Assembly (NCBI RefSeq): GCF_014855515.1 | Contig: NZ_JACYFK010000003.1 | Span: forward strand, 496,001-560,000 | DNA: 64,000 bases | Reading direction: 5' to 3' | From: Euzebyella marina | GTDB taxonomy: Bacteria > Bacteroidota > Bacteroidia > Flavobacteriales > Flavobacteriaceae | Shown: piece after piece, positions 47,436-63,157 of the stretch | Position numbering within the stretch: position 1 is the stretch's first letter | How the letters are laid out: each line of letters starts with the position of its first letter | Notes under the pieces: model-generated | What the model was told of the DNA's origin: nothing | Databases searched by the model: none | Seen by the model: only the letters and a program-made list of their open reading frames with translations | Translations under genes and position numbers: made by a program

Positions 47436-47458
47436 CAAAATTAATAGTAATACTATTA
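47436..47458 (-). promoter_or_regulatory. Promoter and palindromic operator of the TetR-exporter operon
   Basis: Read leftward, TAATTTTG at 47443-47436 exactly matches TAnnTTTG and places transcription start about 12 nt before ATG 47417. Overlapping its upstream edge, 47442-47458 is a palindrome TAATAGTA-A-TACTATTA, with an 8-bp arm on each side of a central A. This is the size and position of a TetR-family operator that blocks polymerase. Confidence 0.65.
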
Positions 47459-47901
47459 TTAATTAAAAGTTTAACTTTTGTTTATGGATATTGTTTAAGT
47501 AAATGATTCGATGAATCTAGTTTTTGCCAAGTAGTTAAAATGGTGACATAATTCTTTGGGAAAGGCTGTTGTAATGAATTTTACTAGGAGATAAAGTTAT
47601 TTAAGATGTTGATTTACAAGTGTTTTTGGAGTAGTATGCTACGGGGTGCTTCTGAGAGCCCATTACGAGGTTTTATCTTCTACTCTAGAAGGATTTCCAT
47701 CATTTTTTGGGATATATGAGAAATGACCGCTAAACAAAATGATTTGATAAGGTTCATTTTTGAATATTAACTTGTGGGTATCACATTAGAAATATACCCT
47801 TAATTATGCCCTAAGAAGCTATTCAGTGTATCACTGCCTACCCGCACCGAAAATCTCATCTAACCGAATTTCTTTATCTTCAATAAAAGATTTTCCCGAA
47901 A
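47459..47901. other. Intergenic region
   Basis: No gene is recognised in this 443-bp AT-rich stretch. It separates the leftward TetR operon from the rightward Crp-like gene and must contain the latter's promoter. I saw no clear -7 element and no RNA gene. Confidence 0.35.
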
Positions 47902-48486
47902 ATGAATGCTGAAGCCCTATTAGCCCATTTTGAGTCTTATTTACCCTTTGAGGAAGATGAAAAAAGTTTGATAAAAAGCAGAATTACGCATAAAGCGGTT
48001 AAAAGAAGGGAATTCATTCTGCAAACGGGCGAAGTCTGTAAATACTACACCTTTGTGGTAAAGGGCATATTAAGACTATTTGTTTTAGATGAAGAAGGTA
48101 AAGAACACAATATTCTCTTTGCCGGGGAGAATGAATGGATTTCGGATATTACGAGTTTTCATGCTACAAAGCCGGGAGTGTCCAATATACAGGCCTTAGA
48201 GTCTTCTGAAATTATTCAGATAGCCCAACAAGATCTCTATTTTCTTTATATAAACATTCAAAAGTTAGATAGAATCTTTAAGGTGATTACCGAGGAAAAA
48301 TATGTTGAGCTACAGAACCGGGTGTTTCATACGATAAGCTCAACCGCTCATCAACGGTATTTGGCTTTTTTAGAGCAATACCCCAAATTGGCCTATAGAT
48401 TACCCAACACCCAAATCGCTTCGTATTTGGGAATTACTCCTGAATTTTTAAGTATGATCAGGAAAGAGATGGTAAAGTCTGATTAG
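47902..48486 (+). CDS. Crp/Fnr-family transcriptional regulator
   Basis: The 194-residue protein has an N-terminal cyclic-nucleotide-binding-like beta roll (~20-120; REFILQTGEVCKYYTFVVKGILRLFVLDEEGKEH). The dimer helix and a C-terminal helix-turn-helix follow (RLPNTQIASYLGITPEFLSMIRKE). No Cys cluster for an Fe-S centre is visible, so it is not a classical Fnr oxygen sensor. Proteins of this type in Flavobacteriia often act as general metabolic or stress regulators. It lies 80 bp before an AraC gene on the same strand. It is a candidate for the paired palindromes at 52635 and 53453, though this is speculative. Confidence 0.9.
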   Translation: MNAEALLAHFESYLPFEEDEKSLIKSRITHKAVKRREFILQTGEVCKYYTFVVKGILRLFVLDEEGKEHNILFAGENEWISDITSFHATKPGVSNIQALESSEIIQIAQQDLYFLYINIQKLDRIFKVITEEKYVELQNRVFHTISSTAHQRYLAFLEQYPKLAYRLPNTQIASYLGITPEFLSMIRKEMVKSD

Positions 48487-48565
48487 GGTAAGCCTGTTAA
48501 AAGTCGGTATAAATCAAATACACATGAGGGATTGAAAATAAGTTTGATTTTTATACTTTAACGGT

Positions 48566-49438
48566 ATGAGCAAAACCAATTCTGCCCCGTCAACAAATTT
48601 TCTGAACAATTTAAAAAGAAAAGGAGCTATAGTGATAGAGATTCAACCTCATGCCAAAGGGTTTTTGAATTATTCTCGTAAAGGTTTTTATAAGATTGCT
48701 TTGGTAACGGGAAAAGCACTGATAAATCAAGCTCATGAAAAAATTCATCTTGATGGAACCTACCTGCGCTTTTCTACACCATATATTCCCTATTCTTCAG
48801 AAGTTCTTTCAGAAAAGTGGGAAGGTTATGCCTGTTACTTTTTGGAAGAATTTTTGTATCCCGGCCACCGGGTCAGCATTATGCAGAAAACCCCTTTGTT
48901 CAAAATCGGGGCAGCACCTGCTGTAAAGCTCACTATAGAACAAAAAGATAAAATTGCTTCTATTTTCCAAAATATGTTACATGAACAGTCAAGCACATAC
49001 AAATTTAAGAATGATGTACTTAGGTCTCATATTAACTTATTGATTCATGAATCGATTAAAATAGATGACACCCTAAATTTTAAGCCTTATCAAAAAGCAC
49101 CTATTAGAATTACATCGCGCTTTTTTGATTTACTGGAAGAACAGTTTCCTGTTGTAAGTCCATTAAAGCCTATAAAATTGGTCAGTGCCAGTGACTTTGC
49201 CGAGTGTATTTCTGTTCATGTTAATTACCTTAATAGAATGGTTAAGGATACAACAGGTAAAACGACGAGTCATCTCATCGCAGAACGGATTATTAAAGAA
49301 GCTGTTGCACTTTTGAAACAAACAGACTGGACAATTTCTGAAATAGCTCTTGCCTTAGGTTTTATTCAGTCAAATTATTTTAGTTCATTTTTTAAAAGGC
49401 ACATAGGTCAAACTCCACAGGAATATAGAAGAGAATAG
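48566..49438 (+). CDS. AraC-family transcriptional regulator
   Basis: The 290-residue protein starts at ATG 48566. The N-terminal cupin-like sensor region is ~30-170. The C-terminal double helix-turn-helix is clear: SDFAECISVHVNYLNRMVK and WTISEIALALGFIQSNYFSSFFKRH, ending TPQEYRRE. It is paralogous to the AraC protein at 6542-7471 across its whole length. It lies 87 bp before the PQQ-dehydrogenase gene on the same strand, so it is the best candidate activator of the quinoprotein/DUF1080 pair. Confidence 0.92.
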   Translation: MSKTNSAPSTNFLNNLKRKGAIVIEIQPHAKGFLNYSRKGFYKIALVTGKALINQAHEKIHLDGTYLRFSTPYIPYSSEVLSEKWEGYACYFLEEFLYPGHRVSIMQKTPLFKIGAAPAVKLTIEQKDKIASIFQNMLHEQSSTYKFKNDVLRSHINLLIHESIKIDDTLNFKPYQKAPIRITSRFFDLLEEQFPVVSPLKPIKLVSASDFAECISVHVNYLNRMVKDTTGKTTSHLIAERIIKEAVALLKQTDWTISEIALALGFIQSNYFSSFFKRHIGQTPQEYRRE

Positions 49439-49494
49439 TTTTATTTTCAAAGTTCTTGGTTTGATTATTATATATATGGCTTATCATATCCATT

Positions 49495-49502
49495 TAATTT
49501 TG
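49495..49502 (+). promoter_or_regulatory. Possible -7 element of the quinoprotein operon
   Basis: TAATTTTG matches TAnnTTTG exactly, 23 bp before the ATG at 49526. No TTG is found at the usual 17-23 bp spacing upstream. An AraC-type activator could compensate. AT-rich sequence makes such matches common. Confidence 0.35.
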
Positions 49503-49525
49503 AAAATGACTTTAAAATTTAAATA

Positions 49526-51664
49526 ATGGGCCACTCAAAAATCTATCTTACCATACTAACACTTACAACCGTATTTTTCTTGAGTTGTAACTCAAATCAA
49601 ACCAGTAATTCAAAAGAACAGTGGTTCACTCATAGAGGAGACCTGGAAAGTTCAAATTATTCTGGGGCTGAACAGATAAAGGTTGATAATGTTAAAGACA
49701 TAGAATTAGCTTGGTCTTTTAATATGAACGATATGCCAGATGGTTCTAGGGCTGGTTTAAGCCAATGTACCCCAATTGTTGTAAAAGGGGTGATGTACAC
49801 GATGTCCGCAAAGGCCATTTTATATGCCCTTGATGCGGCCACCGGTAAGCAAATTTGGCAATTCGACCCTTTTAATGGCCAACAAGGCGGAGGTACCGTT
49901 CGTGGGGTTGCCTATTGGGAGAAAAATGGCGATAGTCGTATTCTATTCGGGGCGGGCCCTACATTGATAGCTGTTAATGCGGAAGATGGAAAACCTATTA
50001 CCGACTTTGGTAAAAACGGAGCGGTTGATTTGCGAATAGGTCTGAGGGATGATCCTTCTGATCTGTTTACTGCCCTGACTTCTCCGGGGGTAATTTATGA
50101 AGACCTTTATATTGTAGGAGGTAGGTTAGAAGATCTTTATGGCTCTCCTCCCGGTTATATAAGAGCCTATAATGTAATCACCGGTGAGTTAACTTGGACA
50201 TTTCATACCATACCTAAGCCGGGTGAGCCAGGTTATGAAACTTGGCCAAAAGAAGCCTACAAAACTGCTGGTGGTGCAAATAATTGGGCAGGAATGAGTG
50301 TAGATACTAAAAGAGGGTTGGTCTTCGCTTCTCTGGGTTCACCTTCTTATGATTTTTATGGGGCCGATAGATTGGGGCAAAATCTTTATGGTAATTGCGT
50401 CTTAGCCTTAGATGCAGCAACAGGAGATTATGTTTGGCACTACCAGACGGTGCATCACGATTTGTGGGACTATGACCTACCCGCACCACCTAACTTGGTT
50501 ACCTTAAAAAAAGATGGAATAGATATAGATGCAGTGGCGCAGATTACTAAACAAGGGTTTGTTTTCGTATTGGATCGTGACACAGGCGAGCCCATTTTTC
50601 CCATAGAAGAAAAGTCGGTACCGGAATCATTTATGCCAGGGGAAAAAGCATGGCCCACACAACCCTTTCCAACAAGGCCTCTACCGTTTGCACGACAATA
50701 TATGACGGTTGAAGATTTAAATGATGTCTCAGCTGAAAATAATCTAGCGCTTCAAAAACAGTTCGATTCACTTAGGTATGAGGGTATGTACACTCCGCCA
50801 GATTTAAAAGGAACCGTTATGATACCCGGTACCCGTGGTGGTGCCCAATGGGGCGGAGCGGCTTTTGATAAGGAAACCAATACCTTATATATCCGCTCTA
50901 TGGATGTTGCCGAACTGATTACCATAGTAGAAAGAGACCCGGCAAAAATTAAGGCTACGTCAACCATTGAACAGGGTGGCAATTTGTATAAGAACTATTG
51001 TGCCGCTTGCCATGGCGCCAACCGTCAAGGTAATGGCGCGGTTTTTCCTGAACTAACCAACGTTAAATCAAGACTTTCAAAAGAAATAGCCAAAACAAAA
51101 ATTACCGGGGGCGTTGGTCAAATGCCTGGCTTTTCTAGGGCTTTGACCGATGATGAAATTGAATCGTTATTGGCATTTTTATATGAGGAAGAAGACAGGG
51201 TAATTTCTGAAGAAGCGGCTTCCACTTCCCAAAATGACAAAATTGAATACTATAATATTTCTGGATACACTACTTGGATAGATCAAAGCGGTAACCCTGC
51301 CATAAAACCACCTTGGGGCACCCTACATTCTCTAGATTTATCAAGCGGGGAATATAACTGGCAAGTTCCTTTGGGAAATAATCCGGAATTGCAAAAAGAT
51401 GGAGCACCATTAACAGGACTTGAGGGAAAATCAGGACCTATAGTCACTGCTGGCGGACTAATTTTTATTGGTGGGGCAGAAGATAAGCTGCTTAGAGCAA
51501 TAGATAAATCTAACGGCCAAACTTTATGGGAATATGAGCTGCCTGCCATGGCAAATGCCACGGCTTGTACCTATGAAGTAGGTGGCAAACAATATGTTTC
51601 CATATCCGTTGGAGGAACAACGGAAAACCCTTCTGGTTCGGTGATGGCCTTTGCCTTAAAATAA
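49526..51664 (+). CDS. PQQ-dependent dehydrogenase with embedded cytochrome c domain, lipoprotein
   Basis: The 712-residue lipoprotein (lipobox FLSC, Cys21) is an eight-bladed quinoprotein propeller with tryptophan-docking-like blocks (ALDAATGKQIWQFDP, AYNVITGELTWTFH, ALDAATGDYVWHYQTVHHDLWDYD, AIDKSNGQTLWEYELP). A cytochrome c domain is inserted near the C-terminal blades: CAACH (Cys492, Cys495, His496) and the Met ligand candidate in VGQMPGFSRAL. This is the arrangement of periplasmic sugar or alcohol dehydrogenases that pass electrons from PQQ to heme. No PQQ synthesis genes are in the window. It is followed by a DUF1080 lipoprotein gene 72 bp away. Confidence 0.9.
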   Translation: MGHSKIYLTILTLTTVFFLSCNSNQTSNSKEQWFTHRGDLESSNYSGAEQIKVDNVKDIELAWSFNMNDMPDGSRAGLSQCTPIVVKGVMYTMSAKAILYALDAATGKQIWQFDPFNGQQGGGTVRGVAYWEKNGDSRILFGAGPTLIAVNAEDGKPITDFGKNGAVDLRIGLRDDPSDLFTALTSPGVIYEDLYIVGGRLEDLYGSPPGYIRAYNVITGELTWTFHTIPKPGEPGYETWPKEAYKTAGGANNWAGMSVDTKRGLVFASLGSPSYDFYGADRLGQNLYGNCVLALDAATGDYVWHYQTVHHDLWDYDLPAPPNLVTLKKDGIDIDAVAQITKQGFVFVLDRDTGEPIFPIEEKSVPESFMPGEKAWPTQPFPTRPLPFARQYMTVEDLNDVSAENNLALQKQFDSLRYEGMYTPPDLKGTVMIPGTRGGAQWGGAAFDKETNTLYIRSMDVAELITIVERDPAKIKATSTIEQGGNLYKNYCAACHGANRQGNGAVFPELTNVKSRLSKEIAKTKITGGVGQMPGFSRALTDDEIESLLAFLYEEEDRVISEEAASTSQNDKIEYYNISGYTTWIDQSGNPAIKPPWGTLHSLDLSSGEYNWQVPLGNNPELQKDGAPLTGLEGKSGPIVTAGGLIFIGGAEDKLLRAIDKSNGQTLWEYELPAMANATACTYEVGGKQYVSISVGGTTENPSGSVMAFALK

Positions 51665-51736
51665 AGTTGTTGAACCAAAGAAATTAAAAGCTAGTAAAGT
51701 TTTTATAAATCATTACAATTAAATAATTTAACATTC

Positions 51737-52501
51737 ATGAATAGAAAATTTTATTTTTTGTCCGTTTTCTTCCTAGTTGTCGCGTCATGTAAAAATGATA
51801 AAAAGACTATGAATAATTCAGATACTGAAGTTATTGAAGAATCTAATATCATGCTGCCAAATATATTAACCGATGAAGAAAAATCGGAAGGGTGGTCTTT
51901 GTTATTTGACGGAGAGACTACCGAGGGTTGGCATTTGTATAATGATGTTGATGCTAAGCCAATTTGGGCAGCGATAGATGGTATACTTACTTGTGATCCT
52001 TTGAACGGTAATGGTGAGCATGGAGATTTGGTATCTGATCAATCCTACGAAAACTATGATTTTACCTTTGAATGGAAGATGACGGAAAGCGGTAACAGCG
52101 GTGTTTTTGTGAATGTTCATGAAAATGAAGAATTTGAAGAGGCCTGGTTTACCGGTCCGGAATATCAATTGTTGGATGCCAGTAATAAAGACTTTTCAAT
52201 CGAAGAAAAGAGATCAGGTTGTCTTTATGGCTATGCTCCGCAATTAACCCCAACACCTACGAAAGCCGTTGGTGAGTGGAACACGGCTCGAATTATACAA
52301 GAAAATGGTAAAATAGAATTCTACTTGAATGGAAACCTTACGGCAAAAGCCGATTTTAATTCGCAAGAATGGAAAGATTATGTCGCCAATTCTGGCTTTA
52401 AGAACTTCCCTCATTTCGGTGCATCTACCAAGGGGCATATAACTTTGCAAGAATGGACATCCCCTGTTTGGTTTCGAAACCTAAAAATTAAAGAGCTGTA
52501 A
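51737..52501 (+). CDS. DUF1080 (3-keto-glycoside hydrolase family) lipoprotein
   Basis: The 254-residue lipoprotein (lipobox VVASC, Cys18) has the DUF1080/PF06439 concanavalin-like domain: WSLLFDGETTEGWHLYND, YDFTFEWKMTESGNSGVFVNV, WNTARIIQENGKIEFYLNGN and WFRNLKIKEL. It shares the fold and key blocks with the protein at 31261 but is not a recent duplicate, because the middle regions differ. Pairing with a PQQ dehydrogenase suggests the latter oxidises a glycoside and this enzyme cleaves the keto product. The stop is followed by a strong terminator. Confidence 0.88.
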   Translation: MNRKFYFLSVFFLVVASCKNDKKTMNNSDTEVIEESNIMLPNILTDEEKSEGWSLLFDGETTEGWHLYNDVDAKPIWAAIDGILTCDPLNGNGEHGDLVSDQSYENYDFTFEWKMTESGNSGVFVNVHENEEFEEAWFTGPEYQLLDASNKDFSIEEKRSGCLYGYAPQLTPTPTKAVGEWNTARIIQENGKIEFYLNGNLTAKADFNSQEWKDYVANSGFKNFPHFGASTKGHITLQEWTSPVWFRNLKIKEL

Positions 52502-52532
52502 ATCCTGGTAAAGGCGACACCTACAAAGAACT

Positions 52533-52575
52533 AAAGGGCAATCAAAGCGATAAAATCGATGATTGCCTTTTTTAT
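52533..52575 (+). terminator. Intrinsic terminator of the quinoprotein/DUF1080 operon
   Basis: GGCAATCA (52537-52544) pairs with TGATTGCC (52560-52567), extended by an A/T-rich outer stem, with an inner CGAT-AAA-ATCG stem. It is followed by TTTTTTATTTT, 32 bp after the stop codon. Confidence 0.85.
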
Positions 52576-52612
52576 TTTCAAGAACTGTAGATGATATAAG
52601 TAAAACCGACTA

Positions 52613-52680
52613 TGCATCACATTAGATGCAAATTCTTAAACTACTTTAAGGGCAGAAAGTATATGGGTGTCTCATTTTTG
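52613..52680 (+). promoter_or_regulatory. Palindrome-type promoter, copy 1
   Basis: CTTAAACTACTTTAAG at 52635-52650 is a palindrome with a single central mismatch. The TTTG of a -7-like element ends 30 bp downstream (52677-52680), and the ATG (52707) is 57 bp after the palindrome. The same palindrome and spacing recur at 53453. An additional inverted repeat TGCATC-N6-GATGCA lies just upstream at 52613-52630 and is found only here. Confidence 0.6.
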
Positions 52681-52706
52681 TAGCGAATTAAAAATGAAGC
52701 ATTTCC

Positions 52707-53449
52707 ATGAAATATTTACTTTCCATTCTCACACTTTTTTGTGGTGCGGTATTAACCCAAGCACAAACAATCAAACTAAAAAAACAATCTTTTGAGTTAC
52801 ATAATGTAACGGGGTCTATCATCAAATTTGAAGGTAATAAAGTCTTAAAAATCGAAAGGGACTAGAAGCTATTCCCTTTGATGAAAATAATATTGAAGCC
52901 ACGGTAGATGAACCCCACTATGCGCGTTTAGTTGGTCTTGAAGATTTTGAAAATGGCTCTATTGAAGTTAAAATGTACAGCCAATTACAAGACCCTGCGC
53001 CTTACCCCGGTATTGCTGGTTTTATAGGCGTTTATTTTCGTATTCAGCCCGATGATTCGGCCTTTGAGGGTATTTACGTTCGCCCTAAAGTAGGTCGCGT
53101 AAACAATCAGCAGTACCGAAACCATGCGGTTCAGTACATTTCGTATCCGAACGCCAAGTTTGACATGCTCAGAAAATCTGACCCTGGTAAATACGAAGGC
53201 TCCGCTCCCGTAGCCCTTAAAGAATGGATTACCATGCGTATTGAGGTAAACGGTGATTTTGCCGAGATGTACATCAACAATGCTAAATACTCCACTTTTG
53301 TGGTAGATAAAATGCTCGGAAAACATAAGATTGGTGGGGTAGGGCTGTATGTTGACATAGGAACCATTGGGTATTTTAAAGATTTAAAGATTACTAAACG
53401 AGCCTTTGACCCCACCAAGAACAAAGAGGTTAAAGTGGATGATATTTGA
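52707..53449 (+). pseudogene. Exported LamG/DUF1080-like protein gene with one frameshift
   Basis: ATG 52707 opens a signal peptide (YLLSILTLFCGAVLTQAQ) and 52 codons up to KIERD, then TAG at 52863-52865. Shifting the frame at 52862 restores LEAIPFDENNIEATVDEP and reads open to 53449. The intact paralogue at 54528 has KVERDLEALPFDLKNL at the same place, so a single base is missing after GGGAC. The rest is a concanavalin-like domain similar to the paralogue (AGFIGVYFRI, VRPKVGR, EWITMRIEV, GTIGYFKDLKI). It may be a pseudogene, a sequencing error, or less likely recoded. Confidence 0.85.
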
Positions 53450-53452
53450 TTT

Positions 53453-53498
53453 CTTAAACTAGTTTAAGGGTAAAACACCTTGCTACCAAAGACCTTTG
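53453..53498 (+). promoter_or_regulatory. Palindrome-type promoter, copy 2
   Basis: CTTAAACTAGTTTAAG at 53453-53468 is a perfect 16-bp palindrome. TTTG (53495-53498) of a -7-like element ends 30 bp after it, exactly as in copy 1, and the ATG (53523) is 55 bp away. If transcription starts about 5 bp after TTTG, the palindrome is centred near -42, the class II activator position. Confidence 0.65.
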
Positions 53499-53522
53499 TT
53501 TTAAAATTAAAACACGAGTACA

Positions 53523-53975
53523 ATGAGAAAGAAAATTGTAAAAAACAGCTTGATCGCACCTTTATTTTTATTTAGCGTATTGACCAATGCCCAAAGCAAT
53601 GAAGAGCAAAAAGTAGCACAAACCGTAAAAGATTACTTTGCTGCGTTGAATGCCTCAAACATCGATGAATTAGTTAAACAGTTTACCAAAAAAGCGGTAC
53701 TGCTTCCTACTGGAGCACCAACTGCAACGGGCACTGAAGAACTAATTGGCAATTATACCTATGTATTCAACACCATTGATTTTGACCTAGAAGTAACCAT
53801 TGCCGATGTAGTTATTGCTGGTGATTATGCCTTTGTACGTTCTACCTCTAAAGGAACCATCCTTTTGAAAAAGGAAAATCAAAAATTAGCGCAAGACTTT
53901 AGGGAAGTGTTTATCTTGAAAAAATTAAATAACTATTGGAAAATCGATACCTATTCTTACAATCAATCAAAATAA
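53523..53975 (+). CDS. Exported SnoaL/NTF2-like (DUF4440-type) protein
   Basis: The 150-residue protein has a signal peptide (NSLIAPLFLFSVLTNAQS). The mature domain is NTF2-like: KVAQTVKDYFAALNASNIDELVKQFTKKAVLLPTG, then YTYVFNTIDFDLEVTIADVVIAGDYAFVRSTSKG and WKIDTYSYN. This fits the YybH/DUF4440 type with a small-molecule pocket. The reaction, if any, is unknown. It has its own palindrome-type promoter and is followed 24 bp later by a DinB gene. It heads a group of four exported proteins on one strand. Confidence 0.8.
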   Translation: MRKKIVKNSLIAPLFLFSVLTNAQSNEEQKVAQTVKDYFAALNASNIDELVKQFTKKAVLLPTGAPTATGTEELIGNYTYVFNTIDFDLEVTIADVVIAGDYAFVRSTSKGTILLKKENQKLAQDFREVFILKKLNNYWKIDTYSYNQSK

Positions 53976-53999
53976 TTTAATCCTCTAACAGTATTCAAC

Positions 54000-54521
54000 A
54001 TGAAAAAATCACTCGTAATCCTATCCCTAATTTTGGGCGCTTTTGGCTCAGTTCATGCACAAACCGTATCCAGCCTCATAGAAGATTGGGAAAGGGCAAA
54101 GGCCTATACCTTAGAATATTTAGAAGCCATGCCTGCCGATAAATATGATTTTAAACCCACCGAAGACATTCGCTCTTTTTCGCAGCAAATGCTACACTTG
54201 ACCGATGCCAATTACGGGTTTACATCGGCCGCGGTAGGAATTGAAAGCCCCATAGGTCAGGGAGAATCAGAAAAAAGCACCGACACCTCTAAAGAAAATG
54301 TAACCCAATTGGTAACCGATGGGTATGATTTTGTCATTAAGGGATTGAACGGAATGACCGATGCAGAATTAAAAGAAAGCATACAGTTATTCGGAAGATT
54401 CAAAATGACTAAAGCACAGGCTTTTGCTAAATTGTTCGAGCACCAAACCCATCATAGAGGACAAACAACTATTTACATTCGAATGGCCGGGATTACCCCA
54501 CCTAACGAAAAATTATTTTAA
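54000..54521 (+). CDS. Exported DinB-family protein
   Basis: The 173-residue protein has a signal peptide (LVILSLILGAFGSVHAQT). The mature four-helix bundle matches DinB/DinB_2 proteins: MPADKYDFKPTEDIRSFSQQMLHLTDANYGF and FAKLFEHQTHHRGQTTIYIRMAG. The three metal-ligand His candidates are in MLHLTD and FEHQTHHRGQ. Most DinB-like proteins are cytosolic metal-dependent thiol transferases or of unknown role; an exported version is a common Bacteroidota variant. Spacing of 24 bp upstream and 6 bp downstream indicates an operon. Confidence 0.85.
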   Translation: MKKSLVILSLILGAFGSVHAQTVSSLIEDWERAKAYTLEYLEAMPADKYDFKPTEDIRSFSQQMLHLTDANYGFTSAAVGIESPIGQGESEKSTDTSKENVTQLVTDGYDFVIKGLNGMTDAELKESIQLFGRFKMTKAQAFAKLFEHQTHHRGQTTIYIRMAGITPPNEKLF

Positions 54522-54527
54522 TCGATT

Positions 54528-55223
54528 ATGAAAAAATACATTTTGGCTACAATATCATTTATTGTGGCAACGGCTATCAATGCACAATCTTTAACTTTTA
54601 AAAAACAAGAGTTTGAGCTTAAACATGTCACCGCTTCCATAGAAAAGGTAAAGGGAAAAAAGGCTATTAAAGTAGAACGAGATTTAGAAGCTTTGCCATT
54701 TGACCTTAAAAATTTAGGATCTACTGTAGATGAACCTACCTATGTTAAGCTAAAGAATGTTACTTTGGCAAATGGCACCATAGAGGTAAAATTATTGAGC
54801 AGGGTTCAGGCCAACACCACTTTTAAAGGTGCACAAGGTTTTATTGGGGTTGCATTTAGAATCAATGACGATGATAGTGCTTACGAATCCATTTACCTAA
54901 GACCCCGTGTTGGTAGATCAGATAGTCAATTTGCACGTAACCGTACAGTGCAATATTACGCCTACCCGGACCATAAATTCGACGTTTTACGTAACGAAAC
55001 CAAAAAAGATTACGAAACCGCAGCACCTATTGCTTTAGACGAGTGGATTACCATGCGTTTGGAAATAAAGGACAAAAAGGTAAAAATGTTTCTTAATAAT
55101 GAAGAATATGCCACCATGGTCATTGATGAAATGTTAGGAAGCACTAAAGAAGGCGCTATTGCACTTTGGGTAGATATTGGTACCGAAGGCTATTTTAGAG
55201 ATTTGAAAGTAATTCAAGAATAA
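54528..55223 (+). CDS. Exported LamG/DUF1080-like protein
   Basis: The 231-residue protein has a signal peptide (LATISFIVATAINAQS) and a concanavalin-like beta-sandwich: FKGAQGFIGVAFRINDDDS, SIYLRPRVGRSDSQFARN, YYAYPDHKFDVLR, EWITMRLEIKDKKVKMFLNN and GTEGYFRDLKVI. It is the intact paralogue of the frameshifted gene at 52707 and supports that gene's reconstruction. The domain resembles DUF1080/LamG folds, but the typical DUF1080 FDG..GW block is not evident. It may bind or cleave a carbohydrate. It lies 6 bp after DinB and 3 bp before the hydrolase gene. Confidence 0.8.
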   Translation: MKKYILATISFIVATAINAQSLTFKKQEFELKHVTASIEKVKGKKAIKVERDLEALPFDLKNLGSTVDEPTYVKLKNVTLANGTIEVKLLSRVQANTTFKGAQGFIGVAFRINDDDSAYESIYLRPRVGRSDSQFARNRTVQYYAYPDHKFDVLRNETKKDYETAAPIALDEWITMRLEIKDKKVKMFLNNEEYATMVIDEMLGSTKEGAIALWVDIGTEGYFRDLKVIQE

Positions 55224-55226
55224 AAA

Positions 55227-56051
55227 ATGAAATCACTTATTGTTTTAGCATTCCTACTGGTAGAAAATTCTCTTTGCTATTCTCAAACAAACACCAAAAT
55301 ACCCTACGGCAACAACCCAAAGGCAGGACATTATGTGCAAGCCGATGACGCTAAACTATATTATGAAGTGTACGGTGAAGGTAAAACCTTAATCATTTTA
55401 CACGGTGGCATTTTAGGTTATATGGACGAGATGACCGATTTTATTGATAGGCTACAAAAAGACTACCAGGTAATCGCTATGGCTACCCGAGGGCATGGTA
55501 AATCTGAAATTGGCAGCAAGCCCATTACCTATGAACGTAGGGCCAACGATGTGTTGGCCGTTATCAATGCGGTAACCCAAGACAGCGTTATCGTATTGGG
55601 TTTTAGTGATGGGGCGTATACGGCCTATAAAGTGGCAAGCCTATTTCCTGAGCGAGTCAAAAAGATGGTCGCCATTGGCGCAGGCGAACAAACACCTGGC
55701 CTGCGTACCGTGAATTTTAATGGCCCCATTTTTGACCCCAATAATGAAATTTGGACGCAAAAGAAAAAGCTGATGCCCGAACCAGACCGATTAGTGCAAT
55801 TCTGGAGGGATATGGAGCAGTTTTACAATTCTATGGCGGCGGATAAAGCTTTGTTCATGAGCATTAAATGTTCAACTTTGGTCTTGTCTGGTGAACTGGA
55901 CCGTAATGCGCCACTGGCCACGGTAATCGCGGCCTACCAGATGATTCCGAACAGTCAACTAGCAATTATACCCAACACAGGGCATGTTACCTTTATGGAA
56001 AATTTTGATACTGTTTGGGCGTGTATAGAACCTTTTTTGTCCGTAGAATAG
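55227..56051 (+). CDS. Exported alpha/beta hydrolase
   Basis: The 274-residue protein has a signal peptide (LIVLAFLLVENSLCYSQ). Core blocks are LIILHGGILGYMDEM, MATRGHGKSEIG, nucleophile elbow GFSDGAYTAYK, acid LSGELDRNAPL and His in NTGHVTFME. It is an esterase, lactonase or peptidase-like enzyme in the periplasm; the substrate is unknown. It starts 3 bp after the LamG-like gene and is the last gene of the exported-protein group. It is convergent with the LytTR regulator at 56119. Confidence 0.87.
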   Translation: MKSLIVLAFLLVENSLCYSQTNTKIPYGNNPKAGHYVQADDAKLYYEVYGEGKTLIILHGGILGYMDEMTDFIDRLQKDYQVIAMATRGHGKSEIGSKPITYERRANDVLAVINAVTQDSVIVLGFSDGAYTAYKVASLFPERVKKMVAIGAGEQTPGLRTVNFNGPIFDPNNEIWTQKKKLMPEPDRLVQFWRDMEQFYNSMAADKALFMSIKCSTLVLSGELDRNAPLATVIAAYQMIPNSQLAIIPNTGHVTFMENFDTVWACIEPFLSVE

Positions 56052-56118
56052 ATAGAATCATTTTTTGAAGAGTTAAAAAAGGGTCTATTTTAAATTCTAA
56101 AGGGTTTATTGCTCCGTT

Positions 56119-56826
56119 TTATCTTTGGGTGAGATTCTGTACCGAATCTCGGTAGGTTTCACCTACGGCCAGTTCTTTATCCCCCAAATAAATACTATTC
56201 TTTCGAATCGCCGTAATTTCGTTAATAGCTACCGAATAAGAGCGATGTATTCGAATGAATAGATTTTCAGGTAACTGACCTTCCAATTCTTTAAAGGTCA
56301 TTCGAACCACTAAAGGTCGTTCAGATTTTTTTAGATGAAACTTGATATAGTCCCCATAACCTTTCATCCAGATGATATCATCAAATTTTATTTTCACCTG
56401 ACTGTGATCAGAATTTACGAAGAAGTGGTCAGATGGTTGGCTTTTTTGTAAAGACTTGGGCGCTTCCTTTAATTCTTTCAACTCTTTCGCACGGTTGCAA
56501 GCTCGCATAAATCGGTCTAAGGGTACAGGTTTTACCAAATAATCGACAACATCTAAATCGTAGCTATCTACGGCGTATTGAGAGTAGGCTGTTATAAAAA
56601 TGACCAGTGGACGTTCTTTTAGGCCAGAAATATATTGAAGGCCCGTCATGCCAGGCATTTGAATGTCGATAAAAATGAGGTCTGTCTGCTCTTTCTGCAT
56701 TAGCTCCATAGCCTCAAAACAATTATTGCACGTACCCACGAGCTCTAAAAAAGGCAGTTTTGAAATATTGTCTTCCAGTAAGCTTAATGCCAATGGTTCA
56801 TCATCGACCGCAATACATCTGATCAT
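56119..56826 (-). CDS. LytTR-family response regulator
   Basis: The 235-residue protein has a receiver domain with DDEP, phospho-acceptor Asp54 (FIDIQMPGM), Thr (FITAYSQ) and Lys (YLVKPVP). The C-terminal LytTR domain (~140-235) includes RIHRSYSVAINE. It is strongly similar to the regulator at 2311-3030. Its start overlaps the kinase stop by 4 nt. It faces the exported-protein group, which is a plausible target, although LytTR sites are usually direct repeats rather than the palindromes seen there. Confidence 0.93.
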   Translation of the reverse strand: MIRCIAVDDEPLALSLLEDNISKLPFLELVGTCNNCFEAMELMQKEQTDLIFIDIQMPGMTGLQYISGLKERPLVIFITAYSQYAVDSYDLDVVDYLVKPVPLDRFMRACNRAKELKELKEAPKSLQKSQPSDHFFVNSDHSQVKIKFDDIIWMKGYGDYIKFHLKKSERPLVVRMTFKELEGQLPENLFIRIHRSYSVAINEITAIRKNSIYLGDKELAVGETYRDSVQNLTQR

Positions 56827-57866
56827 GACTTATAAGTTAACTTTAAATCTACTTTAAACCATTCGCCATCAGAATCTATTTCTAGTTCGTGCATGCCGTC
56901 ATATAGTAATTGAAGCCTGCGTTTAACATTGGCCAGCCCGATACCCGAAACGCCGTCTTTTGTAGTATTTTGGGTCTCATACCTATTCTTGACCTCAAAA
57001 TGTAGGCGACCTTTGTCGCTAATGATATGAATGGCTATTTCCGGCTTTTTCAACATTCCCGTGCCATGCTTGAAAGCGTTCTCAACAAACGGAATCAAAA
57101 GCATCGGTTCTATGGTGTGCCAGTCTTCTATTTCATGAATATTCAGATTAAGCTGTAGTCGGTCACCAATTCGTAACTGTTGCAGTTCAATGTAGCTTTT
57201 CAAGTATTCTATTTCACTTTTTAAAAGCACTTTCTCCTCTGTTTGATACAGCATGTACTTCATAATCGAAGATAATTTGTGAATCGTGGGCTCAAGTTGA
57301 TTGCTTTTTAACCGTGCCATAGCGACCATATTGTTGAGTACGTTGAACAAAAAGTGCGGACTTATCTGCGTACGAAGAAAAGAGAGTTCAGATTTTAAGG
57401 TTTCGTTATTTGCCTCTTGTACCAACTGCTCGGTTTTTGCCCTGTCCTGAACCGTTTTTACTATGATACTGACAAGTGTGGTCAAGAGAAATACGATGGA
57501 ATTATGCCACGCAGAGCCTAAAAATTGAAATTCTATCGAATCGCTCACAAATAAGTGAAAGACCAACCGGCGCACGCCCAAAACACCTAGGTACATGATC
57601 AGTTGCAATAAGATGAACAAAAGGTACTTTCCGCGAAAAAGTAATTTGGGAATGATTACTTGTGTGTTCAGGTAGAAGAACAGCATCCAGAAAAAAAGCA
57701 TGAAAGAGTTGAGGTATAAAAAGGCCCAATCTCTATCAGAAAGGGGACTTTCGTTTTCACGCATCCATGCAAAAAGAAAAGGTAGCAGAATCAAAATGCC
57801 CCAAACCACTATATGAGGAATGATATTTCTATATTTTTTCGGAATATTAAAGTTGAAGTTCATCAT
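56823..57866 (-). CDS. LytS/YpdA-type sensor histidine kinase
   Basis: From ATG 57866 (another at 57863) the protein has about 347 residues; the longer frame begins at TTG 57902. Four membrane helices occupy roughly residues 12-135 (IVVWGILILLPFLFAW; LNSFMLFFWMLFFYL; LLFILLQLIMYLGVLGV; SIVFLLTTLVSIIV). The His phospho-acceptor lies in SPHFLFNVLNNMVAM (about residue 171). The ATPase domain has ENAFKHGTG and GVSGIGLANVKRR. It forms a two-component system with the overlapping LytTR gene and parallels the pair at 1313-3030. Confidence 0.92.
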   Translation of the reverse strand: MMNFNFNIPKKYRNIIPHIVVWGILILLPFLFAWMRENESPLSDRDWAFLYLNSFMLFFWMLFFYLNTQVIIPKLLFRGKYLLFILLQLIMYLGVLGVRRLVFHLFVSDSIEFQFLGSAWHNSIVFLLTTLVSIIVKTVQDRAKTEQLVQEANNETLKSELSFLRTQISPHFLFNVLNNMVAMARLKSNQLEPTIHKLSSIMKYMLYQTEEKVLLKSEIEYLKSYIELQQLRIGDRLQLNLNIHEIEDWHTIEPMLLIPFVENAFKHGTGMLKKPEIAIHIISDKGRLHFEVKNRYETQNTTKDGVSGIGLANVKRRLQLLYDGMHELEIDSDGEWFKVDLKLTYKS

Positions 57867-57939
57867 CTGGGCAAATACAGCATAAGATACTAATTTAGTC
57901 AACTCTTCAGAAAGTTGATCTAAGTTCGGTTCATAAACA

Positions 57940-57971
57940 AGGCGACCTGGGGCAAATACCCTAGGTCACCT
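57940..57971 (-). terminator. Intrinsic terminator of the exported protein gene
   Basis: A 13-position stem with one mismatch and one G-T pair (arms AGGCGACCTGGGG and CCCTAGGTCACCT) encloses CAAATA. Read leftward it is followed by TTGTTTATG, 33 bp after the stop at 58005, so it ends the leftward gene before the kinase. Confidence 0.7.
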
Positions 57972-58004
57972 ATAACAAACAATGACGTAGTTACGACATC
58001 AATC

Positions 58005-58586
58005 TTAATTCTTTATTTTTTGGCGATATACCTTATCGCCTTGTACAACCACTACCTCGTAAGTGCCTTTTAATGCCTTTTCAAAGTTATAACTGCGTTC
58101 AACCGTCAAATCTCCTTCAAACTTATCTTCGTGGGTAATATATCCATCTGGGTTGATGATGTTGACAAGAACAGGCTTTCTCTCAAGGTTTAGAAGGCTA
58201 AGGTTCAGGCGGCCATCTTTAGCCTGAAAAATTTCGTGAGCGGCATCTTCTTTGGTATCCAATATGGTTAATTGGCTTTTATCTACATCTAAGGTGTACT
58301 TAAGAGATTTGTCCTTCATCTTTACCATGAATAAATAGCGGCCATCCGCTAGCTCTTCAAGATTAAAAGATTTAGAGTAGTTGCTATAGACCTCTTCTTT
58401 GAACAAGGTCTGAAGATTGTTGTCTAGAATAGTAATTTTTGCCTCTTCCTGCGAATTGCCAATCTCTAAAAGAACACTCTTTTTAGATTCTGACTTTTTT
58501 AGTTCAACGATGGGGTTATTGGCCATTGCGGCCAATGGGGCAATCAATGCGACACCGATAAGTGCATACTTTTTAATTGTTTTCAT
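58005..58586 (-). CDS. Exported protein of unknown function
   Basis: The 193-residue protein has a signal peptide (YALIGVALIAPLAAMANN). The mature part consists of two similar beta-sandwich units, each with a 'hydrophobic strand, turn, strand' pattern: SVLLEIGNSQEEAKITILDNN...SFNLEELADGRYLFMVKMKD and LLNLERKPVLVNIINPDG...SYNFEKALKGTYEVVVVQGDK. These resemble the Ig-like/DUF3244 or C-terminal sorting-like repeats (GxY motif) of Bacteroidota. No sorting signal is certain. It is monocistronic, with its own promoter and terminator. Confidence 0.72.
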   Translation of the reverse strand: MKTIKKYALIGVALIAPLAAMANNPIVELKKSESKKSVLLEIGNSQEEAKITILDNNLQTLFKEEVYSNYSKSFNLEELADGRYLFMVKMKDKSLKYTLDVDKSQLTILDTKEDAAHEIFQAKDGRLNLSLLNLERKPVLVNIINPDGYITHEDKFEGDLTVERSYNFEKALKGTYEVVVVQGDKVYRQKIKN

Positions 58587-58623
58587 CTCTTTATATATTT
58601 TAGGTTTATATTAGATTTTGGTT

Positions 58624-58651
58624 CAAAAGTAGGGCGAGATGTAGGGCCAAA
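58624..58651 (-). promoter_or_regulatory. Bacteroidota-type promoter
   Basis: Read leftward, TTTG (58651-58648), 16 nt, then TACTTTTG (58631-58624) match the -33 TTG and -7 TAnnTTTG elements. Transcription would start near 58618, about 30 nt before the ATG at 58586. This is the best complete promoter match in the window. Confidence 0.55.
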
Positions 58652-58831
58652 TGAGAAAATGAGACGAAACCGAAAAAGTCTGCGACGAACTCGGAAAATA
58701 GAAGCGATGTACACCATCGTATTTCTTGTAATCTATTCTTTTTGAGCAGGTTGTTTTCTGTTTTTTTATGGAAAGGAAACTGTAAAAAGGGGAGTAGGTA
58801 ATCCTTTTTCTGATGATAAATAAAGACTCAA

Positions 58832-59176
58832 ATGAAGATATCTAAATCGTATGCTGAACATTATAAATGGGGAGATGAGTGTTGTGGGTGGCATTTGGTA
58901 AAATCACCCGATTTAAGCATTATCGAAGAGTTAATGCCGTCTGGAACAGTTGAAAAAAGGCATTATCACCAAAAAGCGCAACAATTTTTCAGAATACTGA
59001 GTGGTAAAGCTACTTTTGAGATTGATGGTGAAACGGTTGTTGTAGATGAAGGCAATGGCATTCATATACCCCCTAAATCGGTTCACCGAATCAGAAATGA
59101 TGAAAATGTCGATTTAATCTTCTTGGTTATCTCGCAACCTACTACAAGAGGTGACCGTTTTGATTTGGAGGAATAG
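58832..59176 (+). CDS. Small cupin-domain protein
   Basis: The 114-residue cytosolic protein is a single cupin barrel. Motif 1 is KRHYHQKAQQFFRILSGKATF (His-x-His, Gln, with a Phe at the usual Glu spacing) and motif 2 is IHIPPKSVHRIRN. The ligands include two His in HYH and one His in VHR. Such small cupins bind metals and sugars or act as isomerases and sensors. It has no close operon partner: the next gene is convergent 22 bp away. Confidence 0.85.
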   Translation: MKISKSYAEHYKWGDECCGWHLVKSPDLSIIEELMPSGTVEKRHYHQKAQQFFRILSGKATFEIDGETVVVDEGNGIHIPPKSVHRIRNDENVDLIFLVISQPTTRGDRFDLEE

Positions 59177-59198
59177 GATGGTAAGTGGCAGGTGAATT

Positions 59199-59933
59199 TT
59201 AAGGCGTAGAAGGTTTTAGGCGATAGAAATAAGGGGCTTTGTTATTGGCGCCGGTATATTTTTTTTCCAAACGTTCTAAAACTCCTAAATCCAACATTTT
59301 CTTTTGAAAGTTATTTCTTCTAAAAGGGCGATCGTAGACGGCCTCATAGACCTGTTGAATTTCTTTCATGGTAAATTTATCGGGTAGCAAATTGAAACCG
59401 AGAAGATTTTCATCTAAGTTAAGTTGCAAGGCCCTATAAGCCTTTGATGTTTGTTCGTTGTGGTCAAATATCAAATCGGGAAGCTCATTAAAATCGTACC
59501 ATTCCAATGAATGGTCTAAACCACTTTTATTTAGTTGTACTTTATTGATATCAACTAAGGCATAATAGCCGATCGAGATGAATCTTTTTGAGAACCAAGT
59601 CAATCGCTCGTTTCCCATTTCATCGTTAGGCTTTAATTCTGGGTTGAAGGCAAACAGCTGGGCCATAAATTTTGAATAGTTTCTGTCTTTTTCACCAAAC
59701 ACCCAAAATTGTTGAAGATAAATTTCTTTGAGGCCTGTTCTTTCTGTCAATATGCGATGTGCAGACTGATCGATACTTTCATTCTGATAAACGAAACCAG
59801 CAGGCAGGGCCAAGAAATCACCTTTGAAATTTAATTGTGATATGAGAACCTTTAGCCGTTTCTCTTGGTAGCCAAAAATGGTACAATCAATAGAAAGTTG
59901 TGAAATTAGTTCGTCTGCTTCATAAATTCTCAT
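59199..59933 (-). CDS. NrtR/AraR-type Nudix-domain transcriptional regulator
   Basis: The 244-residue protein has an N-terminal Nudix-like domain (~10-150). The Nudix box is degenerate (ALPAGFVYQNESIDQSAHRILTERTGL compared with GX5EX7REUXEEXGU), so it is likely a sensor, not a hydrolase. A C-terminal winged helix follows (~165-240; FTMKEIQQVYEAVYDRPFRRNNFQKKML). This is the NrtR-like family, whose Bacteroidota members control sugar catabolism, e.g. arabinose. It is divergent from a GH79-like lipoprotein gene, with a 29-bp perfect palindrome between them. Confidence 0.88.
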   Translation of the reverse strand: MRIYEADELISQLSIDCTIFGYQEKRLKVLISQLNFKGDFLALPAGFVYQNESIDQSAHRILTERTGLKEIYLQQFWVFGEKDRNYSKFMAQLFAFNPELKPNDEMGNERLTWFSKRFISIGYYALVDINKVQLNKSGLDHSLEWYDFNELPDLIFDHNEQTSKAYRALQLNLDENLLGFNLLPDKFTMKEIQQVYEAVYDRPFRRNNFQKKMLDLGVLERLEKKYTGANNKAPYFYRLKPSTP

Positions 59934-59960
59934 AGCCCATCAATTACTTATAGGTTGATT

Positions 59961-59968
59961 CAAAATTA
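59961..59968 (-). promoter_or_regulatory. -7 element of the Nudix regulator gene
   Basis: Read leftward the sequence is TAATTTTG, an exact TAnnTTTG match, 28 bp before the ATG at 59933. No TTG lies at standard spacing. The large palindrome begins 40 bp upstream. Confidence 0.4.
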
Positions 59969-60007
59969 AATCTAGCCTTTTTCATTTTAATGATTTTCAA
60001 AGATAAA

Positions 60008-60036
60008 TTTTATTGTCTTTTTAAAAGACAATAAAA
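60008..60036. promoter_or_regulatory. 29-bp perfect palindrome, probable operator
   Basis: Arm TTTTATTGTCTTTT (60008-60021) is exactly complementary to 60023-60036 around a single T. It lies between the divergent Nudix regulator and the GH79-like gene, 8 bp upstream of a -7 element for the latter. NrtR-family proteins bind such palindromes as dimers. Confidence 0.8.
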
Positions 60037-60044
60037 AATTTTAA

Positions 60045-60052
60045 TATATTTG
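60045..60052 (+). promoter_or_regulatory. -7 element of the GH79-like gene
   Basis: TATATTTG matches TAnnTTTG exactly. The -33 zone would fall in the right arm of the 29-bp palindrome and has no TTG, so the palindrome-binding protein would compete with polymerase. It leaves a leader of about 145 nt before ATG 60204. Confidence 0.5.
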
Positions 60053-60203
60053 ATTGATTCTGTAGTGGTTAAGAATAGGGAAGGGTTACTGGTTAAAGTT
60101 AGGGCTCGAAAGCACCTCCCTATACATCATTAAGTCGAAGATTTAAATTAAGCCTTCATATAGCCTTTAACATTTTCAAATATGCCAACTTAAACACCTT
60201 TTT

Positions 60204-61718
60204 ATGAGATACAAATATTTAGTCTTGACCCCTTTCTTACTAGTCATTTATTCCTGTAAAGAAACTAAAAGTGATGAACTGAAAACACCTAAGCTTGAAC
60301 TTGAGAGCTTAAAACATATCGCCGATGTCGAGGAGCGGTATCAATCGGTAAATGTAGAAATGTGCGAAGTAGTGGGAGGGGAATTTTGGATTCCCTATGA
60401 TTTAATCGATACGGCAGCGGTTAAAGCAAGGGGTTTTTCAGCATTAAAGAGAAAGATACCGGCCATTGATTTATACGATGAGAAGTTAAGGATGCTTACT
60501 TCGGCTTTGGGCCCCATGTATATTAGGGTGAGTGGTACTTGGGCAAATACGACTTATTTTCAGGATAATGACCTACCTAAAATGACAAAAGCTCCAGAGG
60601 GTTACGAAAATGTCTTGACCCGAAAAGAATGGAAGGGCGTTATCGATTTTTGTCAATATTTAGATGCAAAACTGGTTACTTCATTCGCCATAAGTGAGGG
60701 AATGCGTGATCAGAAAGGAAATTGGACCAATGCACAGATAAAACCCTTATTGGAATATACCAACCTACTCAAAGGTGAGATATATGCATCTGAAATGTTC
60801 AACGAACCGTCTCACTCAAGTCATGGTGGGGCACCGGAAAATTATGACGCCATTGATTATGCCAACGACTTTAAAGCCTTTAAAGAATATGTCTCTGTTG
60901 CTGCGCCAGACATGAAAATACTAGGGCCGGGATCAACAGGGGAGGGAGGTATACTTGGGGGTAACGATTCTACAATTACCACAGATAAAATTCTATCGGC
61001 CAAGCCTATTCCTGAATTTGATATTTTTAGTTATCATTTCTATGGAGGTGTATCTCAACGATGTATGGGGCAATTAAGCCCAGAGAACGCTTTAAATGAT
61101 GAATGGCTCTCTAAAACAGAAGATGGCCTAAAGTTCTATGAAGAAGTACGTGACACTTACTTACCAGATGCCCCCATTTGGTTAACCGAAACGGCCGAAG
61201 CCGCCTGTGGGGGGAATCCTTGGGCTGTCACTTTTCTTGATACTTTCCGGTATTTAGAACAAATGGGCAGATTGGCAAAAAAAGGTGTTCAAGTGGTAAT
61301 GCACAATACATTGGCTGCTAGCGAATATGCTTTGCTAGAGCAAGACACACACGACCCAAGACCGAACTATTGGGCAGCCCTGTTATGGGGTAGACTTATG
61401 GGTACCCAAGTTTTCGATATGACAATTAATATCGAGGGCATAAATGTATATGTCCATAATTTGAAAGGTGCTAACGGTTATGCCGCTTTACTGATCAATC
61501 CTTCAGAAAAGGCCGTTGATTTTCACTTGACTCAAAATGCAGAGCAATATTTGCTTACCGCAAAAGAATTGGTTTCTAAAGAAATTCAATTAAATGGAAA
61601 AGTTCTAAAGTTAGAATCCGATACGACCATGCCCGATATCAAAGGTGTTTCCGTTTCAAAGGGTGAACTATCCGTTCCTGCGCATAGCATTATGTTTTTG
61701 ACCTTTCAAGGAAAATAG
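60204..61718 (+). CDS. GH79-like (heparanase/glucuronidase type) glycosidase lipoprotein
   Basis: The 504-residue lipoprotein (lipobox VIYSC, Cys18) has a TIM barrel with GPMYIRVSGTWANTTYF, the acid/base motif EMFNEPSHS (Glu201), FSYHFYGG, and the probable nucleophile motif WLTETAEAACGG (Glu329). A C-terminal beta domain (~415-504; GYAALLINPSEKAVDFHLT) follows. The layout and motifs resemble GH79 enzymes, which cleave beta-glucuronides including heparan-type chains; GH39/GH30-like relatives in clan A are alternatives. It is anchored in a membrane facing the periplasm or surface. Control by the adjacent Nudix regulator is likely. Confidence 0.78.
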   Translation: MRYKYLVLTPFLLVIYSCKETKSDELKTPKLELESLKHIADVEERYQSVNVEMCEVVGGEFWIPYDLIDTAAVKARGFSALKRKIPAIDLYDEKLRMLTSALGPMYIRVSGTWANTTYFQDNDLPKMTKAPEGYENVLTRKEWKGVIDFCQYLDAKLVTSFAISEGMRDQKGNWTNAQIKPLLEYTNLLKGEIYASEMFNEPSHSSHGGAPENYDAIDYANDFKAFKEYVSVAAPDMKILGPGSTGEGGILGGNDSTITTDKILSAKPIPEFDIFSYHFYGGVSQRCMGQLSPENALNDEWLSKTEDGLKFYEEVRDTYLPDAPIWLTETAEAACGGNPWAVTFLDTFRYLEQMGRLAKKGVQVVMHNTLAASEYALLEQDTHDPRPNYWAALLWGRLMGTQVFDMTINIEGINVYVHNLKGANGYAALLINPSEKAVDFHLTQNAEQYLLTAKELVSKEIQLNGKVLKLESDTTMPDIKGVSVSKGELSVPAHSIMFLTFQGK

Positions 61719-61786
61719 GGTAGGGGCCAAGACTTTCCGGTAATTTATAAAGTTGCACATTTTTTAGCGTCAAATCAGAGACTATA

Positions 61787-62689: not shown

Positions 62690-63157
62690 ATCAAAAATTG
62701 AATTATATGATAAAGATAAGTGATTGAACAATGCTTGTCACCTGTCGACCATCGAATCGGTAATAATGGTACAAACATCCGTAATATGGGTATTAAATTG
62801 GGTTTCAAAGGCACTTACATTTGTACTGGATTAATAAGTCAACTGTAAATTTTACTTTCTGGAAAGTTTCACCACTCGATAAAAAGTCAAAAACCCTAAC
62901 GAGGTTTAAAAATTAAATAAACTTCCATCTAAGACTAGTAATTCTATCAAACAGAGACACAGTTAGGGATAGCACTCGAAAAGACTGATAGAGATGATTA
63001 GTATTTAATGTTTTGAAAAATCAATAGTGACCAAGTTCTCTTGAAAATTGCAAGATGACTTAAAGGCAAATATGAAAGGCCAACATTGGTTAAAATTCAA
63101 ACTGCACCGCGAAGGGCTAACTAGAAAGGATTAACGCAAACACTATATTTCTAACTT
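62690..63157. other. Intergenic region between AraC regulator and aldo/keto reductase
   Basis: No gene is recognised in these 468 bp. The region should hold both divergent promoters and an AraC binding site. I found no clear -7 element. TATATTTC just before the reductase ATG is too close to the start to be a normal promoter. Confidence 0.35.

Follow-up and report, generated by a model that had tools for sequence, protein, structure and literature searches.

In the stretch of Euzebyella marina DNA analysed here (the window; 64,000 nucleotides, contig NZ_JACYFK010000003.1, positions 496,001 to 560,000), a putative PQQ dehydrogenase gene is followed by a gene for a DUF1080 lipoprotein, which raises the question of whether the two proteins act in succession on one substrate or are incidental neighbours. 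The preliminary description of this DNA proposed the former, and saw in the pair a counterpart of a heme dehydrogenase/DUF1080 pairing at 22-38 kb of the same window. Our analysis confirmed the observation and partly supports the interpretation.

The described layout, i.e. an AraC-family regulator, a PQQ dehydrogenase with an inserted cytochrome c domain, a DUF1080 protein and one terminator, was borne out (Table 1). The dehydrogenase and DUF1080 genes lie on the same strand, separated by a 72 bp gap in which the scanner detected no terminator-like site and folding no significant hairpin (z 0.0). None of 200 shuffles was as good as the hairpin behind the DUF1080 gene, the 3′ arm of which enters a T-rich stretch; it was absent from the list of a simple terminator scanner, presumably on account of the scanner's loop limit. 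Gap, strand and shared terminator suggest that the two genes form one apparent operon. Both enzymes are probably membrane anchored, as the preliminary description also held, since lipoprotein-type signals were read by eye in each (dehydrogenase, FLSC ending at residue 21; DUF1080 protein, VASC ending at residue 18). A close homologue of the AraC regulator (E value 2e-75) is positioned directly upstream of a PQQ dehydrogenase in a Robertkochia locus (L012), indicating that the AraC-dehydrogenase link is common to at least one relative. Beyond the terminator, window 52973-56051 encodes LamG-like, SnoaL-like, DinB-like, LamG-like and alpha/beta-hydrolase proteins, and a LamG-like paralogue of 54528-55223 at 52690-53449 has its first part in another frame, which reflects either damage to the gene or a mistake in sequencing. 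Near their PQQ dehydrogenases, loci L141 and L142 carry relatives of the Crp-like and LamG-like genes of the window, and L142 also one of its alpha/beta-hydrolase gene.

Table 1. Coordinates of the gene unit, of the 22-38 kb operon and of related proteins at other loci (window positions unless a locus is named)
Feature	Position	Strand	Evidence or remark
AraC-family regulator	48566-49438	+	HTH_18/PF12833, 68 bits; ends 87 bp upstream of the dehydrogenase gene
PQQ-cytochrome c dehydrogenase, lipoprotein-type, 712 aa	49526-51664	+	PF01011, 640 bits, two stretches
Inserted cytochrome c domain, residues 481-552	50966-51181	+	PF13442, 48.6 bits; CAACH at 492-496, MPGF after
PF06439/DUF1080 (3-keto-disaccharide hydrolase family) lipoprotein, 254 aa	51737-52501	+	PF06439, 142.5 bits
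Rho-independent-type terminator	52533-52571	+	hairpin -17 kcal/mol, z -4.7; 3′ side T-rich
PVC-type heme protein, 22-38 kb operon	27269-29962		TIGR02603, 103 bits; TIGR02604, 74 bits (cut-off 122)
DUF1080 protein, 22-38 kb operon	31261-32070		127.6 bits
Fusion genes (propeller, cytochrome and PF06439)	L161:8814-11672; L174:8787-11654; L179:8792-11644		
FG-GAP + PF06439 proteins, about 640 aa	L055:1680-3581; L066:8006-9973; L067:5991-9947; L192:11369-13306		

In the dehydrogenase, the PF01011 match covers residues 33-479 and resumes after the cytochrome c domain, placing the cytochrome between propeller segments and before the last blades. Propeller and cytochrome therefore share one chain, and the cytochrome does not follow the propeller as it does in the solved type II quinohemoproteins. 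An AlphaFold model built with the 47 relatives, out of 74, that entered the structure alignment (mean pLDDT 88.9) returned quinohemoprotein alcohol dehydrogenases as best matches (Foldseek E value 1.5e-35 to 1kb0; Z 38 to 1yiq, tied with others), and this Z score and the PF01011 match identify, for the fold as a whole, an eight-bladed propeller of the PQQ type. HHDLWD (310-315), D317, K342 and R126 are invariant in the 48-sequence alignment, so that the active-site region looks intact by sequence; the Asp and Lys among these positions correspond to catalytic residues of PQQ enzymes. The heme residues C492, C495, H496 and M533 are nearly invariant. The best NCBIfam model was TIGR03074 (glucose/quinate/shikimate PQQ dehydrogenase; 476.4 bits, below the cut-off of 832.65), the best stretch beginning at model position 149 of 783. 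A W-D-Y-D motif was considered as a lanthanide signature and dropped, as no test separated it from glucose-dehydrogenase types. A few literature searches met no assigned function for this group of bacteroidetal PQQ dehydrogenases. The host genome encodes two full-length PQQ dehydrogenases, and a search for PqqC (TIGR02111) found none in the host or in 39 relatives. The model itself works, as it matched Edaphobacter, one of the 22 named genomes searched, at 319 bits; the PQQ of the window's enzyme would thus probably be taken up from outside.

The DUF1080 protein matches PF06439 from end to end (positions 1-187 of 187; cut-off 26.8 bits) and has a solved relative in 4jqt (E value 1e-39). It keeps 19 of the 20 columns common to at least 85 % of 37 aligned rows, two of which are the window's protein. 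Structure prediction of the protein alone reached a pLDDT of 33.7 and was not used. PF06439 has 18 matches in the host genome, 16 of them over the cut-off, and the pairing that the preliminary description had placed in the 22-38 kb operon exists, a PVC-type heme protein and a DUF1080 protein both being found there. Identity between the two DUF1080 proteins of the window is only about 23 %; the second pairing is therefore not a recent copy of the first. In the 22-38 kb operon, an FG-GAP gene (29981) and the DUF1080 gene (31261) are separate neighbours beside the heme protein gene, and a Gfo/Idh dehydrogenase at the operon's end (37178-38326), closest to levoglucosan dehydrogenase (333 bits, cut-off 650), represents another possible 3-keto-sugar enzyme.

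In the loci examined, the pairing is not kept in the orthologues of either partner and is seen only across the wider family. On our tree (FastTree, without bootstrap; five fragments below 600 aa excluded, one from L057, one from L072 and three from L042), the window's dehydrogenase groups with those of Flexithrix, its nearest relative (70 % identity), and Robertkochia. In the DNA examined, a true DUF1080 neighbour is lacking from all 12 other rows of its 13-row clade; L142 was flagged at an E value of 5e-4, but the protein is LamG-like and was rejected. Relatives of the window's DUF1080 protein (E value <1e-40) occur in 18 other genomes of 299. Identity to the window's protein is 45-51 % in ten of them, 41 % in another (G123) and 35-40 % in the others. 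The neighbourhood check covered the first eleven and revealed no PQQ dehydrogenase within about 8 kb, although one flank of G123 is cut short by its contig. At most two of the eleven loci have any neighbour family in common; L221/L224 and L222/L227 are syntenic pairs.

In two congeners, the syntenic DNA resembles that of the window only as far as about position 47,500, beyond which other genes, including a SusC/SusD pair, are found. One of these congeners, G002 (L233), keeps the genes to the left of the segment at 83-91 % protein identity, and the window gene at 61787-62731 recurs about 13 kb further on (87 % protein identity). Judged from these comparisons, window 47439-61786 is a lineage-specific segment in a variable place; as the congener carries a different segment at window 47.4-61.8 kb, the pair lies in a lineage-specific island, and its pairing is either young or due to chance. 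For the window's own pair the proposed coupling has weaker support than for PQQ dehydrogenases at large: gap, strand and terminator speak for it, whereas the close relatives of either protein that were examined do not keep the partner.

Relatives of the dehydrogenase were drawn from two sources. The first comprised 79 named-genome loci, the best 79 of at least 593 confirmed stretches; the second comprised 65 matches, including the window's own, spread over 48 of the 299 genomes searched in the host's family. Of the other 64 family matches, 60 entered the analysis together with flanks of at most 9 kb; the remaining four (one in G082, one in G313 and two in G054), which were fragmentary or lay at the end of a contig, were left out. 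Single-sequence queries for DUF1080 genes near PQQ dehydrogenases found almost nothing, were judged too insensitive and were replaced by a profile built from 27 sequences. This profile missed L066, which was found by Pfam, and the counts of DUF1080 neighbours are therefore lower bounds.

At least 10 of 143 PQQ dehydrogenases, a sample that includes the best 79 named-genome loci, either carry a DUF1080 domain in the same protein or lie immediately next to one. These are the window, L044 (opposite strand), L055, L066, L067, L157 (where the two genes overlap), L192 and three fusions, and they need 8 changes on the tree, or 7 without the window. At L192, L055, L066 and L067 the partner is an FG-GAP + PF06439 protein encoded on the same strand within 60 bp of the PQQ dehydrogenase. 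In the family set of 60 loci, the DUF1080 domain is fused or an immediate neighbour in 5, where 0.42 would be expected; the 5 trace back to 3 events on the tree (Poisson P 0.009 for this number of events). The expectation was calculated for genes of about 1050 bp in random order, and is too low because catabolic genes cluster and too high because tandem domains were counted separately. The earlier proposal of adjoining above chance is therefore supported for PQQ dehydrogenases at large, fusions included, but not for the relatives of the window's pair.

At wider range, a DUF1080 domain in a separate gene was found within 9 kb in 19 of the 60 family loci (3.3 expected); 14 of these 19, however, come from a single locus conserved in the host's family and amount to about one event. 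Its neighbours include NagX-like, SDR, sulfatase, Gfo/Idh and fructosamine-kinase genes. The host's second PQQ dehydrogenase is of the type that has a DUF1080 gene at a distance of 1.6-7.8 kb and, in most cases, a NagX-like gene (14 of L152-L186); in the host itself these two parts lie about 28 kb apart (L140, L230). Any DUF1080 domain within 10 kb was found in 5 of the 79 best-matching named-genome loci, some of which end at contig ends. PF06439 is present in 47 of the 48 PQQ-dehydrogenase genomes of the host's family and over the cut-off in 10 of 26 mixed-sample genomes (the host and some PQQ carriers included), a comparison confounded by lifestyle and genome size. Within 5 kb, the 137 loci considered contain Gfo/Idh cluster (23), DUF1080 (22), sulfatase cluster (21) and SusC cluster (18) genes, and gluconolactonase-like SGL genes occupy 4 immediate-neighbour places. 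ThuA-like (PF06283) genes occur near PQQ dehydrogenases in 11 loci and directly beside them in 6, two of these being fusions.

In three genomes of the host's family (G219, G146 and G021), a PQQ propeller, an inserted cytochrome and a C-terminal PF06439 domain (120-122 bits) make up one protein of 950-955 aa, in the same module order as the window's two genes. The three fusions form one starred clade on the tree. A ThuA-domain gene lies less than 20 bp upstream of the fusion in G219 and G146 (directly upstream in L161 and L174), and 1.3 kb away on the other strand in G021. Sulfatase-cluster genes, one confirmed by Pfam, are found near the fusion in G219 and G146, and the G219 locus also contains a fucosidase and SusC/SusD. 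The fusion is rare, as a query with it at an E value <1e-200 against another sampling, of 395 genomes from the order, matched G219 alone. ThuAB makes 3-ketotrehalose. Together, the fusion and the ThuA-like neighbours favour a keto-glycoside mechanism for the dehydrogenase family.

The genomic setting gives some indication of the likely substrate. A sulfatase gene is positioned directly upstream of the PQQ dehydrogenase in the Flexithrix relative, and SusC/SusD and DUF4380 genes lie near the Dyadobacter relatives of the window's dehydrogenase; the sulfatase and SusC/SusD genes in these members of the window's clade point to sugars. Neighbours of another kind, not sugar genes, occur in a sister branch to that clade, namely cupin, CMD, ABM, zinc-ADH, aldo-keto reductase, esterase and SnoaL genes, and Robertkochia L012 has a zinc-ADH gene too. 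Sugars or sugar derivatives are the better guess for the window's enzyme.

We put forward, as a reading that falls only just short of an even chance, that the window's pair encodes a periplasmic step of oxidation followed by cleavage, in a small, probably AraC-controlled transcription unit on a lineage-specific island. The lipid-anchored quinohemoprotein, using PQQ taken up from outside, would oxidise a ring hydroxyl of a glycoside, for which we infer the C3 position. The electrons would reach the respiratory chain by way of the enzyme's own heme c, and the DUF1080 lipoprotein would then cleave the activated keto-glycoside. This order of events is moderately suggested for the window's pair and more strongly for the fusion proteins. 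It is modelled by analogy on the LacABC-DUF1080 system: according to PMC9007349, Caulobacter LacABC oxidises lactose in the periplasm, and a nearby DUF1080 gene is important on lactose, its product being proposed as a periplasmic partner of LacABC that cleaves 3′-ketolactose. The same source also reports a Pedobacter with ten DUF1080 genes, none with a lactose phenotype, which counts against our reading.

The two genes may instead have come together incidentally within an island: the dehydrogenase would act by itself on alcohols, aldoses or polyols (e.g. oxidising C1 to a lactone), controlled by the AraC regulator, and a separate DUF1080 gene would have landed behind it. We regard this as a serious possibility, if a rather doubtful one. 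It would fit the absence of the other partner beside close relatives of either protein in the loci examined, the replacement of the segment by other genes in congeners, the TIGR03074 family, the SGL genes as immediate neighbours of PQQ dehydrogenases, and the sister branch with its AraC gene and esterase/ADH/cupin setting. The shared strand, short gap and common terminator argue against it, as do the adjacency and fusion that recur elsewhere.

The order of the two reactions could also be reversed, with the DUF1080 protein cutting a glycan and the dehydrogenase oxidising the released sugar for electrons. Genes for sulfatases and SusC/SusD often lie near dehydrogenases of this family, the DUF1080 protein THTE_1561 is reported to be an endo-xanthanase, and PMC10881899 describes a DUF1080 protein active on unoxidised glucans, which keeps the reverse order alive. 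We nevertheless consider it unlikely, as PMC9007349 names two characterised DUF1080 proteins, THTE_1561 and BT2157, and proposes a keto-lactose role for a third, and the ThuA-like genes beside the fusion fit a keto-glycoside path. A propeller without PQQ, serving some other purpose in a host that appears not to make the cofactor, is very improbable. The PqqC search would suit this idea, and PQQ-empty quinoproteins form a named family (TIGR04528). The window's dehydrogenase, however, reaches 228 bits against that model's cut-off of 650, far below its TIGR03074 score; its HHDLWD, D317 and K342 positions are invariant, its heme motif is nearly so, and its model aligns with PQQ enzymes.

Extending the oxidation-then-cleavage reading beyond the window, we tentatively suggest, as a possibility somewhat below an even chance, that in some Bacteroidota glycosidic bonds are cut by the coupled action of a quinohemoprotein glycoside dehydrogenase and a DUF1080 keto-glycoside hydrolase, the two being fused in three genomes. 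Such a route into sulfated or branched glycans would be linked to respiration and would rely on scavenged PQQ, and the window would hold a two-gene version of it. If so, the oxidise-then-cleave glycan route would gain an extra entry enzyme that feeds respiration and needs PQQ from other organisms, and a group of bacteroidetal PQQ dehydrogenases would gain a role. Taken alone, the window's pair would attract modest interest; this is raised by the fusion protein and by the recurrence of the pairing, which make the coupling directly testable, the fusion being a single construct from which substrate, oxidised position and cleavage product could be read in one assay. A literature search with most subscription papers outside its scope met no text joining DUF1080 with PQQ, nor the phrase '3-keto-disaccharide hydrolase', and searches of the same scope on 3-keto glycosides, quinoproteins, Bacteroides glycan pathways, and PQQ and polysaccharide loci met no such system; given that scope, this is not proof of novelty.

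Among known systems, LacABC with DUF1080 (Caulobacter and others) is alike in having a periplasmic, membrane-bound dehydrogenase encoded near DUF1080 and, in PMC9007349, a proposed 3-keto-glycoside that is then cleaved. It differs in being a three-component system supported by mutant fitness data, whereas the window's enzyme is a single-chain PQQ-heme protein. ThuA (PF06283) trehalose-utilisation proteins resemble the present system in that ThuA-like genes lie beside dehydrogenases of the family; none was found among the window genes tested (40-59 kb). In the BT2157-2160-type 3-keto-disaccharide pathway of Bacteroides, the entries for BT_2158 and BT_2159 in NCBIfam are a glycoside and a disaccharide 3-dehydrogenase. 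Enzymes of this pathway are of the Gfo/Idh type and NAD-linked, not PQQ or heme proteins. The likeness lies in BT2157, a DUF1080 3-ketotrehalose hydrolase according to PMC9007349. Unlike the TIGR03074 membrane dehydrogenases, the window's enzyme scores below their cut-off and is lipoprotein-type with a built-in heme. The closest solved folds are those of the quinohemoprotein alcohol dehydrogenases 1yiq, 1kb0 and 8gy2, which likewise combine a PQQ propeller and a cytochrome c in one chain; the window's dehydrogenase is 27-30 % identical to the solved quinohemoproteins over structurally aligned residues, and its cytochrome is inserted before the last blades, whereas that of 1yiq and 1kb0 comes after the propeller.
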